From: Candidatus Methylomirabilota bacterium
GTDB taxonomy: Bacteria > Methylomirabilota > Methylomirabilia > Rokubacteriales > CSP1-6
DNA length: 32,791 bases
Assembly (NCBI GenBank): GCA_036001065.1
Contig: DASYUQ010000025.1
Span: forward strand, 1-32,791
Direction: 5' to 3'
Positions 1-9,447 of this stretch are shown one piece after another. A program made the position numbers and the translations under genes. The notes beneath the pieces were generated by a model that was given only the letters and a program-made list of their open reading frames with translations, was not told the origin of the DNA and ran no database searches. Positions within the stretch are counted from its first letter, which is position 1; each line of letters opens with the position of its first letter.

Positions 1-941
1 TCCCGGTGACCGAGGAGCTCCTGAACGGTCCGGATGTCGTGGTTGTCCTCGAGCAGGTGGGTGGCGAAGGAGTGTCGAAACGTGTGACAGGTCGCGCGCT
101 TCGCGATGCCCGCGCGGCGCGCGGCCTCCTTCACCGCCCGCTGCAGCACGGACTCGTGCAGGTGGTGGCGGCGCCGCTGGCCGGTGACACGGTCCACGTA
201 GAAACGGGTCGCCGGGAAGATCCACTGCCAGGCCCATTCCCGCCCGGCGTTCGGGTACTTGCGCGCGAGCGCCCACGGGAGTTCCACCCAGCCGGCTCCG
301 CACTGCAGATCGCGCTCGTGCTGCCGTTGCACCCCGTGAAGGTGCCGGGCCAGGTCCGCCTTCACGGCGCCGGGGAGCATGGTGACCCGATCCTTGTCAC
401 CCTTGCCCCCACGGACCACGATCTGGTTGGACGCGAAGTCGACGTCCTGGACCCGTAGCCGGGCGCACTCGAGGAGGCGGAGCCCGGCACCGTACATGAG
501 GAGAACCATCAGCCGCGGCGTGCCCTGGAGCTGCTGGATGACGGCCCGCACCTCGGCGCGGGTGAGCACCACGGGCAGCCGCTGCGCGCCCTTCGCCCGC
601 ACCACGTTGTCGAGCCATGGCAAGTCCTGTTCCAGGACGTCCCGATAAAGGAACAGGAGGGCGCTCAGCGCCTGATTCTGTGTCGAGGCCGCCACGTTCC
701 CATCGACGGCCAGCGAGGTCAGAAACCGGGTGGCCTCGGCCGCGCCCATCTCGGTGGGATGACGCTTGCCGTGAAACAAGATGTACCGGCGGATCCACGC
801 GACGTAGGTCTTCTCTGTGCGGCGGCTGTAGTGCCGGGCGCGGATGGCCTGGCGGACCCGGTCGAGGAGTCGGGGCTTCGGCGCGCCGGCGGGGCCAGCC
901 TCACGGACGGCGAGTGTGGCAGCGAGGGCGCCTTCCGACAA
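1..941 (-). CDS. intI: Integron integrase-like tyrosine recombinase (3' end off window)
   Basis: Tyrosine site-specific recombinase of the integron-integrase branch; this family recombines attI with attC. Read on the minus strand, 313 codons are visible and the left edge cuts the gene just after box-III GHR, so the catalytic Tyr lies outside. Visible catalytic residues are R155 (in GLRLLE), K180 (GGKGDK), H286 and R289 ([13 protein letters not shown]) and H312. The segment between K180 and H286 carries the extra IntI domain at about residues 222-262 ([13 protein letters not shown] followed by RRRHH), which ordinary XerC/D proteins lack. An N-terminal SAM-like core-binding domain ([18 protein letters not shown]) is intact. 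The chosen start is TTG at 939-941, because no ATG or GTG lies in frame upstream of the conserved N-terminus; a GGGGG tract lies about 9 nt upstream. No disruption is seen. Whether it serves a cassette array cannot be told from this window. Confidence 0.9.
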
Positions 942-984
942 GATTTCGAGCCCCCTTTTGTTCGTGCGTCTCGAACATAGCCGA

Positions 985-1075
985 GCGGGTCGGAGCCCGC
1001 AAGACGAATCCACAAGACGAATCCACGAGCGGCCGTGAGCGCTCGATGAGTGCATGGGATCGGATACAGTTGAGC
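985..1075 (+). other. Possible attI-like region beside the integrase
   Basis: Between the integrase start and the next gene lie a short GC hairpin (GCGGG/CCCGC, 985-1000), a perfect tandem duplication of a 13-mer AAGACGAATCCAC (1001-1013 and 1014-1026), and one GTTRRRY match, GTTGAGC at 1069-1075. The GTTGAGC is oriented as an attI core would be, reading away from intI. Direct repeats and a GTTRRRY core are expected of attI, but one heptamer match in about 240 bp can easily arise by chance. No attC-like element or cassette follows. Confidence 0.25.
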
Positions 1076-1125
1076 TCATAGGCCGTGGTGTTCAGACCGG
1101 CGAGGCGCTACGCGACGGTGACACG

Positions 1126-2678: not shown

Positions 2679-2888
2679 TCACGGGAACCGTGTGGGGGCG
2701 TACCGGGTGTCGACGATGTCGTCATACGCGGGCACCCGCGTGATCAGCCCCGCGAACTTGAGCATCTCGCCGATGTTCGCCACCGCCTGACGGCTGATGA
2801 CCGGCCGGTAGCCCTTGATGCTGTCCTGAAGGATTTGACGGAGAAGTTTCGGATCGATGCCCGCGAAGTACTTCTCGGCCACCTTCAC
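2679..2888 (-). pseudogene. C-terminal remnant of an NMT1/THI5-type substrate-binding protein
   Basis: Only the last 69 codons remain of an ABC substrate-binding protein of the NMT1/SsuA/TauA type. The segment reads VAEKYFAGIDPKLL, then ISRQAVANIGEMLKFAGL, then DDIVDTRYAP, which is the normal C-terminal end of such proteins (usually about 330 aa). It has no signal peptide and no ligand lobes. It overlaps the truncated ATPase by four bases in another frame (GTG AAG ... against CCG TGA). The missing parts are exactly those that lie between the ATPase and the end of the binding protein in a typical operon. Confidence 0.75.
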
Positions 2889-3292
2889 GGCCCCGCGAGT
2901 CCGGTGAGCCGGAGGAGGTCCCGCGCCTTCGCCTCTCGCCGCTCCGGCGGCTCCCCTGCGAGCTCCGGGCCGAACACGACGTTGGCGAGGCTCGTGCGCC
3001 AGGGCAGCAGCGCGTCACGGGCGAACATGTAGCCGATGCGCGGGTTGATGCCCTGGACGGGGACACCGTTTACACTCACGTGCCCGGTGGACGGCAGGAA
3101 GAGTCCGGAGACGATGTTGAGGAGCGTCGACTTGCCGCAGCCGCTCGGTCCCACGATGGCGAGGAACTCGCCCTCCGCCACGTCGAGGGTGACGTCGGCC
3201 AGCACCGGCACCGTACGGCCGTCGATCTCGAAGGCGTGGGAGAGATGCGCGATGCCGATCTTGCGACGCGGCGTGGGGGGCGCCGTTGACAA
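2885..3292 (-). pseudogene. Truncated SsuB/TauB-type ABC transporter ATPase
   Basis: N-terminal half (135 codons) of a nitrate/sulfonate/taurine-type ABC ATPase. The Walker A motif GPSGCGKSTLL and the Q-loop area (IGYMFARDALLPWRT) are present. The frame ends after LTGLAGP, before the LSGG signature, Walker B and the His switch, so the product cannot form a working ATPase (family length about 250-270 aa). The start is TTG at 3290-3292, five nt after AGGAG. The truncation point abuts the C-terminal remnant of a substrate-binding protein, so one deletion probably removed the ATPase C-terminus, the permease and most of the binding protein. Confidence 0.8.
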
Positions 3293-3393: not shown

Positions 3394-4524
3394 GTGTCCG
3401 AGCGCGTAGCAGTGGTGGGCGTGAGCCAGGTCGGGTATGCGAGCGCCATCACCGACCGCACGCTCGAGGAGCTGATCTTCGAGGCGGCGAGCGGTGCCCT
3501 CGCCGACGCCCGCCTCGCCTGGAGCGATCTCGACGCCGTCGTGATCGGCGCCTCCGATCTCGTCGACGGACGTGTCATCTCGAGCATGGTGACGGCGCCG
3601 CCGGCGGGCGGCTACATGAAGGACCTGCTGGCGGTAGCGTCGAGCGCGGAGCACGCCTTCGTGCTCGCCTACCTGCGCCTGGCCTCCGGCCTCGGCCACA
3701 CCGCGCTGGTGGCCGGCTGGAGCAAGTGCTCGGAGGCGCCCATCCCGCTCGTGGAGCAGCTCAGCCTCGACCCCTTCTACCGACGGCACGTGGGGATGGA
3801 CGGTCTGGTGGCGGCTGCAATCCAGGCCGCAGCCTACCGCGACCGCTACGGGCTGGAGGAGGCGGCGGCGGCGCGCGTGGTGGTGAAGAACCGGGCGAGC
3901 GGCGTCCGGAACCCTCACGCCGAGCGCCGGCAGGCCGTGACCGCGAACGACGTTCTCGTCTCGCCGATGGTGGTGTGGCCCCTCAAGGCGCTCGAGACGT
4001 CGCCCCTGTCGGATGGGGCCTGCGCGCTCGTGCTCGCCCGCGGGGAGCGCGCCGACACGCTCCGGTGTCCGGCGGCGCAGGTGCGGGGCGTGGGCTGGGC
4101 CTCGGCGACCTACTGGCGGGAGCCGGAGGAACTCGTCGACTCCCGCGCGCTGGCGGCGGCCGCGGAGCGCGCGTACCGGATGGCCGGCGTGCGGGACCCG
4201 CGCCGCGAGTTCGCCGTGGCCGAGGTGTACGATGTCACCCCGTACCACGAGCTCATGGCGTACGAGGGGCTGGGCTTCTGCGGCCCCGGTGAGGGCGCGC
4301 GCTTCGCCGCCGCCGGCGAGGTCAGCGTCAATCCCTCCGGAGGCCTCCTCTGCGCGCACCCGTTCTTCGCCTCCGGCCTCGTGCGGATCGCCGAGGCCTG
4401 TCTTCAAGTCACGGGCCGCGCCGACGGCCACCAGGTAGTGCGCGCGCGGCGCGCGGTCGCCCACGGTGCCAGCGGGCTCGCCGGCCAGGCCCACACGGTG
4501 GTCGTCCTCGAAGGCGAGGCGTGA
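3394..4524 (+). CDS. Thiolase-fold protein lacking the nucleophilic Cys (operon gene 1)
   Basis: 376-aa protein of the thiolase/SCP2 superfamily. The GTG start at 3394 has GGAGG four nt upstream and begins at the conserved VAVVGVSQVGYA strand; a longer TTG-initiated reading from 3286 is rejected because it runs through the promoter. Family marks are the N-terminal halves EEAAAARVVVKNR and NPHAERR, and a C-terminal NPSGGLLCAHP with the catalytic His at 322. The position normally holding the acyl-accepting Cys (Cys-x-Ser-Ser-x-x-Ala) reads A82-S-S-A-E-H-A, so Cys is replaced by Ala. The segment AEVYDVTPYHELMAYEGLGFC resembles SCP2-type lyases such as steroid side-chain Ltp2. It is translationally coupled to a second, diverged copy and is followed by a DUF35 protein, the usual partner of such enzymes. 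I infer a CoA-ester C-C lyase or scaffold subunit rather than a thiolase; the substrate is unknown. Confidence 0.85.
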   Translation: MSERVAVVGVSQVGYASAITDRTLEELIFEAASGALADARLAWSDLDAVVIGASDLVDGRVISSMVTAPPAGGYMKDLLAVASSAEHAFVLAYLRLASGLGHTALVAGWSKCSEAPIPLVEQLSLDPFYRRHVGMDGLVAAAIQAAAYRDRYGLEEAAAARVVVKNRASGVRNPHAERRQAVTANDVLVSPMVVWPLKALETSPLSDGACALVLARGERADTLRCPAAQVRGVGWASATYWREPEELVDSRALAAAAERAYRMAGVRDPRREFAVAEVYDVTPYHELMAYEGLGFCGPGEGARFAAAGEVSVNPSGGLLCAHPFFASGLVRIAEACLQVTGRADGHQVVRARRAVAHGASGLAGQAHTVVVLEGEA

Positions 4525-5708
4525 CGGCGATGCGGCGCGTGGCTATCGTCGGCGTCGGCCAGACCGAGCACCGCTTCCGCCGGGACGACGTGACTTACCC
4601 CGAGCTGGCGCGGGAGGCCGTCGCGCGCGCGCTGGCCCATGCGGGCCTGGAGGTGCGCGACATCGAGGCGGCCGTGCTCGCCCTGGCGCCCGATGCGCTC
4701 ATGGGCGTGGCCCACGCCGAGCGGTGGGTGGCCGACGCCCTCGGCGTGGCTGACAAGCCCTTCATGCGCGTCAACACCGGCGGGTCCACGGGGATCACCA
4801 CCGTGCACGCCGCCTACTTCCACGTGGCGTCCGGCATGTTCGACTGCGTACTGGCGGCGGGGGCCGACCGGGTGGGGGAAAGCGGCGACGCCCAGCTCGT
4901 CCTGAACACGATGTGGGACGTCCTCTACGAGCGGCCCTTCCCGCTCAACGCCATCAACATGCTGGCGCTCCAGGCCGTGCGCTACATGGCGAAGTACGGC
5001 ACGACGGAGTACCACATGGCGCTGGCCGCGGTGAAGAACCGGCGCCACGCGCTCCGGAACCCTCACGCCCACCTCCGGAAGGAGGTGACGGTGGAGGAGG
5101 TTCTCGCCTCGCGGGTGATCTGCTGGCCCATCAAGCTCTTCGACGCCTGCCCGCAGTCCACGGGAGGCTGCGCCCTGGTTCTCTGCTCGGAAGAGGTCGC
5201 GCGCCGGCTGCCGGGGCCGAAGGCGTGGATCGATGGCGTCGGCAACTGCGTGGAGACCTACTTCATGGGGGACCGCATGGGTCCGGCCGCCGAGCACGAC
5301 CACGCCGACGCCGACGCCCTCGCCGAGGCCATCGCCCGGGCCTACCGCCAGGCCGGGATCCGCGACCCCTGGCGGGAGATCGACGTGGCCGAGCTCTACG
5401 CGCCCTTCAGCAACATCGAGCTTCACGTCATCGAGGCGGCGCGGCTGTGTGACAAGGGGCAGGCGGGACCGCTCCTCGAGAAGGGCGAGTTCCACCTGGG
5501 GAGCCGCCAGCCTGTCAACCCGTCGGGCGGGGTGCTGTGCGCGAATCCCATTGCCGTCACCGCCATGGTCCGCGTGGCGGAGGCTGCGCTGCAGGTGATG
5601 GCCCATGCGGGCGAGCGGCAGGTGGAGGGGGCGCGGACGGCGCTTGCCACCGGCATCGGCGGCGACCACCAGTTTTATGGAGCCGTGGTCTTGCGAGGGG
5701 AACGATGA
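4521..5708 (+). CDS. Second thiolase-fold protein, active site degenerate (operon gene 2)
   Basis: 395-aa thiolase-superfamily paralogue of the preceding gene. It starts at GTG 4521, overlapping the upstream stop (GTGA), with AAGG six nt upstream; ATG 4530 is an alternative. It keeps the fold landmarks VAIVGVGQTEH, MALAAVKNRRHALRNPHAH and VNPSGGVLC. The acyl-Cys position aligns with Gly88 (VNTGGSTGIT), and the GHP histidine of the second half is Asn342 (CANP), so both classical catalytic residues are gone. It may be the non-catalytic half of a heteromer with gene 1, or bind ligand only. It ends in an ATGA overlap with a 35-codon ORF, with the DUF35 gene next. Base composition matches its neighbours, so decay is unlikely; the substitutions look maintained. 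Confidence 0.85.
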   Translation: MTAMRRVAIVGVGQTEHRFRRDDVTYPELAREAVARALAHAGLEVRDIEAAVLALAPDALMGVAHAERWVADALGVADKPFMRVNTGGSTGITTVHAAYFHVASGMFDCVLAAGADRVGESGDAQLVLNTMWDVLYERPFPLNAINMLALQAVRYMAKYGTTEYHMALAAVKNRRHALRNPHAHLRKEVTVEEVLASRVICWPIKLFDACPQSTGGCALVLCSEEVARRLPGPKAWIDGVGNCVETYFMGDRMGPAAEHDHADADALAEAIARAYRQAGIRDPWREIDVAELYAPFSNIELHVIEAARLCDKGQAGPLLEKGEFHLGSRQPVNPSGGVLCANPIAVTAMVRVAEAALQVMAHAGERQVEGARTALATGIGGDHQFYGAVVLRGER

Positions 5709-5812
5709 GTGACGTGCGCCGCGTGGTCGAGGAGCGCCACGGGCTCCCCGGGGCGCTCCGAGCGCTGGGGGGTGTGGGGGGCCATGTCGGGGCCCCCCAC
5801 GTCGGGCGATGA
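5705..5812 (+). CDS. Possible 35-aa coupled ORF between thiolase-fold gene 2 and DUF35
   Basis: An ATG at 5705 overlaps the upstream stop (ATGA) and the ORF's own TGA overlaps the next ATG (ATGA at 5809-5812), so a ribosome could pass through all three genes without a gap. The 35-residue product begins MSDVRRVVEERHGLPG and ends Gly/His-rich. It matches no family I know. Its second half coincides with a strong hairpin, so the region could instead be an untranslated coupling or RNA-stability element. Confidence 0.35.
   Translation: MSDVRRVVEERHGLPGALRALGGVGGHVGAPHVGR
5774..5800 (+). repeat. Perfect 10-bp hairpin inside the operon
   Basis: GTGGGGGGCC (5774-5783) and GGCCCCCCAC (5791-5800) are exact reverse complements around the 7-nt loop ATGTCGG. 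No T-tract follows, so it is not a normal intrinsic terminator. It lies 8 nt before the DUF35 start and could affect coupling or processing of the mRNA. Confidence 0.6.
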
Positions 5813-6267
5813 GCGAGCCGGTGATCGAGATCGAGCAACATTGGGATATCCACTACCGTCACGCCGCCGGCGAGACGGGCAGCCACTTCTTCCGGGCGCT
5901 GCGTGAGAAGCGCCTTCTCGGCCGCCGCTGCCCGCAGTGCCGGCGCGTGCTCCTGCCCCCCCGCGGCTTCTGCGACCGCTGCTTCGCCGCCACCGGCGAG
6001 TGGGTGGAGGTCGCGCCCGACGGGGTGCTGGAGGCGTTCACGGTGGTGGCTCAGAAGTTTACGGGCATGCCCGACCCGCCCTACGTGGTGGCGTATGTGC
6101 GGCTCAGGAACGCCGACACGGCGATGGTGAACTACCTCCGCGGCGTCGATCTCTCCGACGTGCGGGCGGCGGCCCAGCGGCTCGCCGTCGGGATGCCGGT
6201 CCGCGCGATCTTCACCGCGCGGCCCGAGGGGCGGATGACCGACTTCTGGTTCGAGCCGGCGCGGTGA
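5809..6267 (+). CDS. DUF35 Zn-ribbon/OB-fold acyl-CoA-binding protein
   Basis: 152-aa protein with a rubredoxin-like zinc ribbon (C41-P-Q-C44 ... C55-D-R-C58) followed by an OB fold (VEVAPDGVLEAFTVV ... PYVVAYVRL). This DUF35/ChsH2-C type is known to clamp CoA substrates and to assemble with thiolase-fold enzymes such as HMG-CoA synthase/thiolase complexes in archaea or Ltp2 lyases in steroid degraders. An N-terminal helix (HYRHAAGETGSHFFRALREKRLLG) is the typical docking segment. The ATG overlaps the preceding small ORF, and its TGA overlaps the GTG of the crotonase. Its position straight after two thiolase-fold genes strongly suggests it is their subunit. Confidence 0.9.
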   Translation: MSEPVIEIEQHWDIHYRHAAGETGSHFFRALREKRLLGRRCPQCRRVLLPPRGFCDRCFAATGEWVEVAPDGVLEAFTVVAQKFTGMPDPPYVVAYVRLRNADTAMVNYLRGVDLSDVRAAAQRLAVGMPVRAIFTARPEGRMTDFWFEPAR

Positions 6268-7073
6268 GCGTCGGACAGGTTCTGGGCTCCGTCGCCGACG
6301 AAGTCAGGCTGGAGCGCGACGGCCCGGTCGCCACGATCACGTTCAACCGGCCCGGGGACCAGAACCGGCTCACGCGGGACGTCCTCCTCGCCCTCCAGGG
6401 CATCGTCGACCGCCTCGCCGATGACGAGGAGATCCAGGCGATCGTCGTGACGGGCACGGGGAATCAGTTCTTCTCCATGGGGATCCTGAACCCCGCCGTG
6501 CGCGCCTCCTACACCAAGGACCAAATCCTGGAGCTCGTCCGGGTCGCCAACCGGCTCTACGACGCCATCGAGGCGCTTCCACAAATCGTCATCGTCGCCC
6601 TGAACGGCGCCGCCCGGGCCGGCGCCGCCGAGCTCGCGCTGGCGTGCGATATCCGGCTGGCCGCGGCGCACGCCACGTTCGCGCTGCCCGAGGCGCTCTG
6701 GGGCGGCTTCCCGGGCGCCGGCGGTCCCGTGCGTCTGCCCGTGATCGTCGGCCGGGCGCGGGCCCTCGAGATCATCTGCACCGGGCGCGAGCTCGGTGCC
6801 GCGGAGATGGAGCGGCTCGGACTCGTGCTCGCCGTCCACCCGGCGGAGCGATTGCTCCCCGAAGCGCACGCGCTCGCCACCCGCATCTGCGCGAGCGGGC
6901 CCCTCGCCACGCGCGGCGCCAAGCGCATCATGAACGTGCGCATGGCTTCTGGATTTACCGCGGCCCGCGCGCTGTCGGACGCGCTCCGCCACGCGCTCGA
7001 ATGGAGCCGGGACGTCGACGAGGGCCTGGCGGCGCATCGCGAGGGCCGGCAGCCGCGCTTCACCGGGCGCTGA
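6264..7073 (+). CDS. Enoyl-CoA hydratase/isomerase (crotonase) family protein
   Basis: 269-aa crotonase-fold enzyme acting on acyl-CoA thioesters. The start is GTG 6264, overlapping the DUF35 stop (GTGA). The family pattern is RLERDGPVATITFNRP, then an oxyanion-hole segment TGTGNQFFSMGI, then NGAARAGAAELALACDI and LPEALWGGFPGAGG. The two Glu residues used by classical hydratases correspond to the Glu of AAELAL and the Glu of LPEAL and are both present. The first oxyanion segment reads FFSMGI where family members usually have an Asp after the Gly. The likely role is hydration of an unsaturated acyl-CoA upstream of the thiolase-fold/DUF35 cleavage step, inferred from operon context. Confidence 0.88.
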   Translation: MSVGQVLGSVADEVRLERDGPVATITFNRPGDQNRLTRDVLLALQGIVDRLADDEEIQAIVVTGTGNQFFSMGILNPAVRASYTKDQILELVRVANRLYDAIEALPQIVIVALNGAARAGAAELALACDIRLAAAHATFALPEALWGGFPGAGGPVRLPVIVGRARALEIICTGRELGAAEMERLGLVLAVHPAERLLPEAHALATRICASGPLATRGAKRIMNVRMASGFTAARALSDALRHALEWSRDVDEGLAAHREGRQPRFTGR

Positions 7074-7075
7074 CG

Positions 7076-8728
7076 ATGCGGCAGGCGGTCGGGATGCCGC
7101 CGCGCAGCCGCACGCTGGGCGACCTCCTCGACGAGCAGACGGCCGCGCGGCCGCGGGCGGAGGCGGTCGTCTTCCGGGGAGAGCGCCTCACCTACGCCGC
7201 GCTGAAGGCGCAGGCCGACGGGCTGGCGCGGGCCCTCCTCGCCGCCGGCGTGCGGAGAGGTGACCGCGTCGCCATCCTCCTCCCGAACCGGCCGGAGTGG
7301 CTCGTCACCGCCTTCGCCGCCGCCAAGGTCGGGGCGATCACCGTCGGCGTCAGCACCTTCTCGACGCCCCGGGAGATCGCGTGGACCCTCGAGCACTGCC
7401 GGCCCGCCGCCCTCGTGACCACGGAGGGGTTCCGCGGCCGGAGCTTCCTCGCCCCGCTCTACGAGCTGTGCCCGGAGCTGGCCGCTGCCGCTCCGGAAGC
7501 GCTCAGGAGCGAGCGCTTCCCCGAGCTGCGCGCTGTGGCGTGCGTCAACGAGCGGCGGTACGACGGCGTTTACCGGCTCGGCGATCTGCTCGCCCGGGCG
7601 ACCGAGGTGAGCGAGGCCGCCCTCGCCGCCGCCCAGGCGGCGGTGGCTCCCGCCGACCTCGCCTATATCCTCTACACGTCAGGCTCCACCGCCACGCCCA
7701 AGGGCGTCACCCTCGCCCACGGCGGCGTGATCGAGAACGGCTTCAACATCGGCGAGCGCCAGCACCTGCGCGAGACGGACCGGCTCTGGCTGGCCGTGCC
7801 GCTCTTCTGGTCCTTCGGATCGGCCAACGCGCTGCCCGCCATCATGACCCACGGAGGCGCGATCGTCCTCCAGGAGAGCTTCGAGCCCGGGGAGGCCCTC
7901 GCCCTCCTCGACGAGGAGCGGTGCAGCGTCTACTACGGGATGACGAACATGGCGCGGGCGATCCTGGAGCACCCCAACCGGCCGCGGCGCCGGCTCCTCA
8001 CCATGCGCACCGGCCTCACCATCGGGCTCCCCGAGGACATCCAGATGACGATGGAGGCCGTCAACGCCCGCGAGCTCTGCAACGTCTACGGCTCGACGGA
8101 GACCTACGGGAACTGCGCGGTGACCGACGCTCACGACCCCCTCGAGCTCCGCCTGCACACCCAGGGGGCGCCGCTGCCGGGGATGGACATCCGGGTCGTC
8201 GATCCCACCACGGGACGGGCCCTCCCCGCGGGCGAGGTGGGAGAGTTCCGCGTCAAGGGGTACCTGACGCCCGGTTACTACAACGACCCTGGGCTGAACC
8301 GCACCGCCTTCGATGCCGACGGATACTTCGTCACCGGCGACCTCGGATGCCTCGGGACCGATGGGCGGGTGCGCTTCCGGGGCCGGCTCAAGGAGATGAT
8401 CAAGACCGGCGGCATCAATGTGGCCCCGCTGGAGGTGGAAGGCGTGCTCCTCACGCACCCCGCGGTGAAGCAGGCCTACGTCGTCGGCGTGCCCGACCGC
8501 GACAGGGGGGAGCTGGTGGTGGCGGCGGTCGAGCTCCACGAGGGCGCGGAGGCGACGGCGGAGGCGCTGGTCGCGTTCTGCCGCGAGCGCCTCGCCGGCT
8601 ACAAGGTGCCGGCCCGCGTCGTCTTCCGGAAGGGCGAGGAGTTCCCGCGGACGCCGACGGGCAAGGTGCAGAAGCCCCAGCTCAGGGAGGAGCTGTCACG
8701 AGTCGTCGCCGGGAGCGGCAAGCGATGA
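7076..8728 (+). CDS. AMP-forming acyl-CoA ligase
   Basis: 550-aa member of the ANL (acyl-CoA synthetase) superfamily: ATP plus a carboxylic acid gives an acyl-adenylate, then an acyl-CoA. The P-loop-like motif YTSGSTATPKG starts at residue 200. The A5 motif YGSTETYGN, A7 VTGDLG, A8 RFRGRLKEMIKTGGINVAPLE and the C-terminal catalytic Lys530 in PRTPTGKVQK are all intact. The ATG at 7076 follows the crotonase stop by two nt. The acid pocket cannot be read reliably, so the substrate is open. It would supply the CoA ester used by the rest of the operon. Confidence 0.93.
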   Translation: MRQAVGMPPRSRTLGDLLDEQTAARPRAEAVVFRGERLTYAALKAQADGLARALLAAGVRRGDRVAILLPNRPEWLVTAFAAAKVGAITVGVSTFSTPREIAWTLEHCRPAALVTTEGFRGRSFLAPLYELCPELAAAAPEALRSERFPELRAVACVNERRYDGVYRLGDLLARATEVSEAALAAAQAAVAPADLAYILYTSGSTATPKGVTLAHGGVIENGFNIGERQHLRETDRLWLAVPLFWSFGSANALPAIMTHGGAIVLQESFEPGEALALLDEERCSVYYGMTNMARAILEHPNRPRRRLLTMRTGLTIGLPEDIQMTMEAVNARELCNVYGSTETYGNCAVTDAHDPLELRLHTQGAPLPGMDIRVVDPTTGRALPAGEVGEFRVKGYLTPGYYNDPGLNRTAFDADGYFVTGDLGCLGTDGRVRFRGRLKEMIKTGGINVAPLEVEGVLLTHPAVKQAYVVGVPDRDRGELVVAAVELHEGAEATAEALVAFCRERLAGYKVPARVVFRKGEEFPRTPTGKVQKPQLREELSRVVAGSGKR

Positions 8729-9447
8729 TCCGGGTCATCGACCTCACTTGGCCGCTCTACGAGGGCATGCCCAATCACCCCGCGCACCCGGTGACGCCGA
8801 AGCTCGTCAGCGGGACGATGAGCCACAAGGGGACGGCTCTCTGGATGGCGAAGAACTCACGCTACGGCCAGGTCTCCTTCGCCAGCGAGCAGTTCCTCCT
8901 CGCCGGCCACGTGGGCACGCACCTGGACGCCCCCTATCACGGCAACCCCGACGGGCCGACCGTGGACGTGCTCGATCTGCGCCACTTCGTGGGGGAGGCC
9001 ATCTGGCTCGACGTCTCGGCGGCCTGCGGCCCGCGGGCCCTGGTGACCGCCGCCGACCTCGAGCAGGCGCTGGCCGCCGCCGGCGTGGCCCCGGCTCCCA
9101 TCGTGCTCCTCTACACGGGCTGGTCACGCACGCGCGACGACGCGCGTCGGTACTTCCGCGACAGCATGGGGCTCGGCGAGGACGCGGCGGGCTGGCTAAG
9201 GAAGCGCGGCGCGCTGACGGTCGGGGTGGATGCGCCGAGCGTGGACCCGGGCGGCTCCGCCGAGGTCCCGGCCCACATGACCTTCTTCCGCCCGCGCCCC
9301 GGCGAGCCCTACATCTGCGTGATCGAGAACCTCGTGCGTGTGGAGGAGATCCCCCGCCACGCGTTCCACTTCGTCGGCGCCCCGCTCCCCCTCAAGGGCG
9401 CCAGCGGCTCGCCCATCCGCGCCCTCGCCCTCGTCGATCTCGGCTAG
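8725..9447 (+). CDS. Cyclase-family (kynurenine formamidase-like) metal hydrolase
   Basis: 240-aa protein of the PF04199 cyclase family, whose characterised members hydrolyse formamides, lactones or imides using divalent metal. The signature H62-x-G-T-H66-x-D68-x-P-x-H72 (GHVGTHLDAPYH) is complete. DLTWPLYEGMPNHP at the N-terminus and GVDAPSVDPGG with the distal His are also family features. The ATG overlaps the ligase stop (ATGA). As the last gene of the operon it may open a ring or lactone to give the acid that the ligase activates; this is inference. Its TAG stop codon lies at the left boundary of a MITE-like insertion. Confidence 0.9.
   Translation: MIRVIDLTWPLYEGMPNHPAHPVTPKLVSGTMSHKGTALWMAKNSRYGQVSFASEQFLLAGHVGTHLDAPYHGNPDGPTVDVLDLRHFVGEAIWLDVSAACGPRALVTAADLEQALAAAGVAPAPIVLLYTGWSRTRDDARRYFRDSMGLGEDAAGWLRKRGALTVGVDAPSVDPGGSAEVPAHMTFFRPRPGEPYICVIENLVRVEEIPRHAFHFVGAPLPLKGASGSPIRALALVDLG

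Follow-up and report, generated by a model that had tools for sequence, protein, structure and literature searches.

Organization of the locus

Two adjacent genes in the genome of a Candidatus Methylomirabilota bacterium raise the question of what reaction, if any, can be supported by a pair of thiolase-fold proteins that both lack the nucleophilic cysteine. The genes, termed here g1 and g2, lie at the head of a tight plus-strand operon of six genes within the window (the whole stretch of DNA that was analysed, 32,791 nucleotides):

3394..4524, + strand: g1, upstream thiolase-fold subunit; GTG start, with GGAGG 5' of the start
4521..5708, + strand: g2, downstream thiolase-fold subunit
5809..6267, + strand: DUF35 partner (PF12172 and PF01796), with a Zn ribbon (CxxC-x10-CxxC) plus an OB fold
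6264..7073, + strand: crotonase/enoyl-CoA hydratase family protein (PF00378); GTG start overlapping the DUF35 stop
7076..8728, + strand: AMP-binding acyl-CoA ligase (PF00501)
8725..9447, + strand: putative cyclase, a kynurenine-formamidase-like metal hydrolase (PF04199)

The two thiolase-fold genes overlap by 4 nt, and their products share 37% identity. The partners named in an earlier note on this DNA, a DUF35 protein, a crotonase, an acyl-CoA ligase and a cyclase, are all found in the operon with g1 and g2, as evidenced by Pfam domain matches. Both glutamates of the hydratase site are apparently present in the crotonase, judged by what we take to be the hydratase motif. No acyl-CoA dehydrogenase was detected in the operon, and no match to a 3-hydroxyacyl-CoA dehydrogenase was obtained among the 29 window ORFs scanned.

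The window is a single contig of a Rokubacteria genome (G000), whose closest named relative is Candidatus Rokubacteria GWA2_70_23, with 88% identity in g1. In the relative termed L010, a complete ABC transporter is encoded divergently from the cassette, an arrangement suggestive of organic acid uptake; the substrate-binding protein of this transporter (L010 566-1591, minus strand) is presumably of the NitT/TauT type. At the corresponding place in the window lies a shortened ABC ATPase (2885-3292, minus strand), and at about position 2889 some 2.1 kb is missing relative to L010 (L010 776-2860), representing either a deletion or an assembly join. An integron integrase occupies window positions 1-1079 on the minus strand (TIGR02249, 408.6 bits against a cut-off of 265) and runs past the left contig end.

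Fold and active-site residues of g1 and g2

AlphaFold single-chain models were obtained with pLDDT values of 88.0 for g1 and 88.3 for g2, and in these models both proteins are full-length thiolase folds, matched end to end. For both subunits, the best fold match by Z is archaeal acetoacetyl-CoA thiolase, with a VIA Z of 52.0 for g1 (to 6ET9) and 55.6 for g2 (to 6ESQ). The corresponding values are 44.6 for g1 to Ltp2, and 48.0 and 47.8 for g2 to Sal and Ltp2, respectively. Because lyases and thiolases both match well, the structural comparison with Ltp2 and acetoacetyl-CoA thiolase proposed in the earlier note confirms the thiolase fold but cannot choose between a thiolase and a lyase. The aligned residues do differ, in that the archaeal thiolase keeps the Cys and the HDCF motif, unlike g1 and g2.

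The suggestion that two neighbouring thiolase-fold genes have both lost the nucleophilic Cys is borne out by the models and alignments, and neither protein carries the Cys-dependent thiolase triad of a nucleophilic Cys and two His. In the case of g2, Gly88 is found at the Cys position, as had been noted, Tyr293 at the His of HDCF and Pro295 at its Cys, and the Asn previously noted in place of the C-terminal His is Asn342, at the His of GHP. The situation in g1 is less clear-cut: a short loop occupies the Cys position, and Tyr279, Val281 and His322 lie at the other sites. Thus, the loss of Cys from g1 stands, whereas the assignment of Ala82 to the acyl-Cys position depends on the alignment, with Ala82, Ser83 or Ala85 all defensible. 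His322 is retained at the second His position of g1; the L010 relative (88% identical) has Asn.

Distribution of tandem Cys-less pairs

Tandem pairs of this kind are found well beyond the window. Cys is missing from both genes in all 31 pairs examined, which come from at least seven phyla (two archaeal) and, as they were selected for their similarity to the window genes, do not represent an unbiased census. On the basis of this recurrence, an isolated degenerative event or a sequencing mistake was rejected as the source of the Cys loss. A DUF35 gene lies near each of the 30 non-redundant pairs, and the arrangement of pair and DUF35 gene recurs in order across distant phyla. When a genome collection of 84,980 species was scanned with g1, seven loci were recovered (one from Rokubacteria, two from Chloroflexota, one from a Deltaproteobacterium labelled Myxococcota, two from Actinomycetota and one from a Nitrososphaerota archaeon), every one with a tandem pair and DUF35. 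Whole-genome searches identified the pair in another Rokubacteria genome, as well as several pairs inside single genomes. Among 251 Chloroflexota genomes, nine gave a match at the strict cut-off, one of which (G189) is a Cys thiolase, and two adjacent matches were found in 3 of 95 genomes of the window's own phylum (G000, G088 and G089). Pairs are also present on plasmid records from Simplicispira, Cupriavidus, Rhodococcus, Streptomyces, Tsukamurella and the haloarchaeon Haloterrigena.

Several loci were handled separately in these counts. L061 and L062 repeat L016 and L010 and were left out, as were L063, for which L102 was used, and L070-L079, for which wider stretches were used; the G341 pair (L076), which has the same residues, fell out with the dropped rows. 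The two genes at L101 lie 0.8 kb apart and were entered as two singles. L010 is included in the residue count of 31 pairs and lies outside the 30-pair sets used for neighbourhoods, co-divergence and the column scan.

Conservation of the cyclase and of PrpD with the pair was not supported among the examined loci, where PrpD is limited to the window and L010, and the PF04199 cyclase has one weak match beyond the window (L086).

Other arrangements of thiolase-fold genes were encountered. For instance, the Simplicispira suum plasmid (L080 6535-15775) brings together in one cluster a Cys-less pair with DUF35, a Cys thiolase, and an Ltp2-like protein that has YDHF, the Tyr and its own OB-fold gene. 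A third pair type, with Tyr-Asp-Pro-Phe downstream and Asp or Asn upstream (L052, L060, L072, L073, L075-L077), occurs among Chloroflexota and in a single Actinomycetota genome; two DUF35 genes frequently accompany it. A single-gene clade of Rokubacteria thiolase-fold proteins has Thr for Cys and keeps HDAF/GHP (L006, L022, L025-L027, L029, L033 and L034), resembling ST0096 (4YZO), where the residue is Ser.

A residue signature confined to the downstream subunit

In residue tables taken from the full realignment, the downstream genes (n=31) have Gly in 31, Tyr in 30 (Phe in Haloterrigena) and Asn in 31 at the triad positions. At the two non-Cys positions, Tyr is present in 7 and His in 9 of the upstream genes (n=31), and in 28 of the 31 the shorter loop leaves a gap at the Cys column. 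As judged from these alignments, the upstream subunit is without a catalytic triad. The earlier note had looked to gene 1 for the Tyr pair of the lyases, an expectation that does not hold: the Tyr aligned to Tyr294 of Ltp2 and Tyr302 of Sal is the one conserved downstream, and the second Tyr of Ltp2 is missing from both g1 and g2. A lyase Tyr peculiar to g1 was dropped as a candidate on the basis of its low upstream conservation.

The same positions emerged from a scan of all columns that named no positions beforehand, and that retained columns near-invariant in the downstream subunits (at least 28 of 30) and shared by at most 5 of 20 single-gene Cys thiolases. Four columns were picked, namely those of the Cys, the first His and the second His, plus a Trp (W236) that is near-invariant in downstream subunits only. 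At the first three, Gly (30/30), Tyr (29/30) and Asn (30/30) replace the Cys, His and His that are each present in 20/20 of the single-gene thiolases; since these singles were picked with Cys and HDC, invariance of the Cys and first-His columns was built into the set, whereas that of the GHP His column was not.

Phylogeny and co-divergence

In a tree of 104 proteins, all 65 pair members lie beyond one branch with an SH-aLRT support of 99.9, and the Ltp2-like proteins neighbour this clade with a support of only 88. The upstream subunits group apart from the downstream ones, and the branching of the two groups is similar. The Tsukamurella rows (L085) fall inside a 26-row upstream group (support 98) and a 26-row downstream group (support 95), and thus share clades with pairs of the window type.

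The two subunits have also diverged together. Across 30 pairs, distances among g1 proteins correlate with those among g2 proteins at r 0.63 (0 of 5000 permutations); the correlation is tighter, at r 0.93 (4 of 5040 permutations), among seven pairs from a single genome, a comparison free of species effects. The nearest neighbour is identical for g1 and g2 in just 13 of the 30 pairs.

Proposed reaction and its alternatives

Taken on their sequence features, g1, g2 and the DUF35 protein probably assemble into a heteromeric aldol lyase of Ltp3/Ltp4 type, with catalysis residing in g2 and not in g1. In the proposed pathway, the ligase would make a CoA ester, the crotonase would hydrate the enoyl-CoA, and the lyase would cleave the resulting 3-hydroxyacyl-CoA with no need for a 3-hydroxyacyl-CoA dehydrogenase. 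Here, Tyr293 of g2, in the place of Tyr294 of Ltp2, would take a proton from the 3-hydroxyl, and the Calpha-Cbeta bond would break to yield an acyl-CoA enolate together with a ketone or aldehyde. Space at the acyl-Cys site would come from Gly88, and Asn342 would probably hydrogen-bond the substrate or the enolate. The degenerate g1 is envisaged as a probably non-catalytic partner whose part is to complete the dimer and give the pocket its shape, with DUF35 binding beside the acyl-CoA tunnel as a scaffold. By analogy with the C24 branches of sterols, a tertiary 3-hydroxyacyl-CoA would give a ketone on cleavage, a substrate type for which a thiolase would be unusable. A steroid substrate itself is unlikely, as the window genome has no match to KshA_C and a single P450.

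The neighbourhoods of the pairs weakly favour a route of hydration followed by cleavage. A hydratase is found near 15 of 30 pairs versus 4 of 20 single Cys thiolases, but 3-hydroxyacyl-CoA dehydrogenase genes lie close to 4 of 30 pairs versus 2 of 20 singles. Identical residues could work in the reverse direction, and it is conceivable, albeit unlikely, that the pair catalyses some other Cys-free acyl-CoA reaction, either decarboxylation or condensation via an enolate (forward aldol or Claisen), with Tyr293 and Asn342 forming the enolate site. The existence of PhlABC, where an active and an inactive thiolase-fold protein are paired with DUF35 in synthesis, is consistent with such a role, but the active subunit PhlC retains its Cys, and a C88S mutant of a homologue is among the structure matches. 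Slow malonyl-CoA decarboxylation has been reported for the Cys-less TbSLP, whereas Sal showed none according to its authors (PMC12329534). However, the ligase, hydratase and transporter next to the cassette point to breakdown.

A quite improbable alternative is that g1 and g2 are both non-catalytic, acting as thiolase-derived proteins that bind or carry acyl-CoA or lipid. The label of lipid-transfer proteins given by NCBI to related families is in keeping with this idea, as is the degenerate triad of g1, but the near-invariance of Tyr and Asn at the catalytic positions of g2 over distant pairs argues for selection on chemistry. Finally, a thiolase or acyltransferase using a Cys from elsewhere is very hard to credit: Cys340 of g2 is near the site in sequence, two residues before Asn342, with a Cys also in L010, L012 and L013, but its position varies among other pairs, and g2 has no His at either His position. 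In g1 no Cys is close to the site, the nearest being Cys112. A Cys elsewhere in the active site, which the earlier note would have counted against its reading, does not turn up.

Returning to the aldol lyase, a broader proposal can be put forward as speculation that is much more apt to fail than to hold. Under this proposal, the pairs would be ancient and widespread two-subunit pseudo-thiolases that break Calpha-Cbeta bonds at a new Gly/Tyr/Asn site, its missing general acid being supplied from across the dimer by the degenerate partner, providing a route for beta-branched acyl-CoAs, of which the sterol Ltp3-Ltp4 system would be one late case. If true, this would represent a means by which bacteria and archaea handle beta-branched acyl-CoAs that are barred from the 3-ketoacyl-CoA stage. 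There is a practical side as well. Annotation labels the genes of such pairs thiolases or lipid-transfer proteins, with the result that they would pass for enzymes of beta-oxidation; the Gly/Tyr/Asn signature together with tandem pairing may provide a simple annotation test for distinguishing probable lyases from true thiolases.

Comparison with known systems

PhlABC resembles the window cassette in having two thiolase-superfamily proteins, one active and one inactive, with a DUF35 protein, but it performs a synthetic acylation with one Cys-bearing subunit, whereas neither window subunit has the Cys. In the case of Sal-Shy(DUF35) (9MYR), catalysis is ascribed to Tyr302 and Cys304 of YDCY, with Gly replacing the thiolase Cys (PMC12329534). 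The Gly and the essential Tyr302 base are common to g2, whereas the position of Cys304 is occupied by Pro295 in g2 and Val281 in g1. Sal-Shy is an alpha-beta-beta-alpha assembly with a single type of Sal, unlike the two thiolase-fold types of the window pair.

Ltp2-ChsH2(DUF35) (6OK1), which relies on Tyr294 of YDHF and on Tyr344 (PMC12329534), has in common with g2 the thiolase fold, the DUF35 partner, Gly at the Cys position and the Tyr base, matched at the HDCF His position by Tyr293. It has one type of thiolase-fold subunit against two in the window. When an Ltp2-like protein from the window's own genome is aligned to 6OK1, Tyr344 falls at the GHP His column, where g2 has Asn342, and the His of YDHF corresponds to Pro295. 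On these alignments, g2 matches both Ltp2 and Sal in the Gly and in the base but matches neither in the second catalytic residue.

Ltp2-ChsH2 had been named as the known parallel to the window pair, yet Ltp3-Ltp4 is closer, as evidenced by a Tsukamurella pair, family cut-offs, architecture and residues. The Tsukamurella plasmid encodes DUF35 and members of PRK07937 (593.4 bits) and PRK08313 (734.3 bits), both past cut-off, with a crotonase and a ligase near, and this pair has Gly, Tyr and Asn downstream and no triad upstream. From protein lengths and gene order, we take PRK07937 to be Ltp4 and PRK08313 to be Ltp3, the lengths and order of the Tsukamurella genes being those that we assume for Rv3521-ltp4-ltp3 of M. 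tuberculosis. The window proteins score far below the cut-offs of these families (136.3 against 419 for g1 with PRK07937, and 342.3 against 514 for g2 with PRK08313).

In M. tuberculosis, ltp4 and ltp3 are listed in a published table as Rv3522 and Rv3523 (PMC6429209). The genes ltp3 and ltp4 are described as acting on branched side chains (PMC6273163, PMC6593523). In the sterol route as outlined in a review, the ligase FadD19 and hydration precede cleavage of the C24-C25 bond by the heteromeric aldol-lyase Ltp3-Ltp4 (PMC6678751, citing Wilbrink 2012). Ltp3 is unmentioned in the main text of the Sal paper (PMC12329534), and the open-access literature searched yielded neither a structure or assay of the Ltp3-Ltp4 pair nor an account of a wider pair family.

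Like Ltp3-Ltp4, the window has two adjoining Cys-less thiolase-fold genes and a DUF35 gene, with g1 in the Ltp4-like position and g2 in the Ltp3-like position. The order differs, being DUF35-Ltp4-Ltp3 in the known system and g1-g2-DUF35 in the window, and so does the probable substrate, since Ltp3-Ltp4 act on C24-branched sterol side chains and the window genome is without a KshA-like gene. The description of Ltp3-Ltp4 as a heteromeric aldol-lyase was already known; what the present comparison would add is the wider pair family and its residue signature, which tie a genetically known system to a broad family and name candidate residues for mutation.
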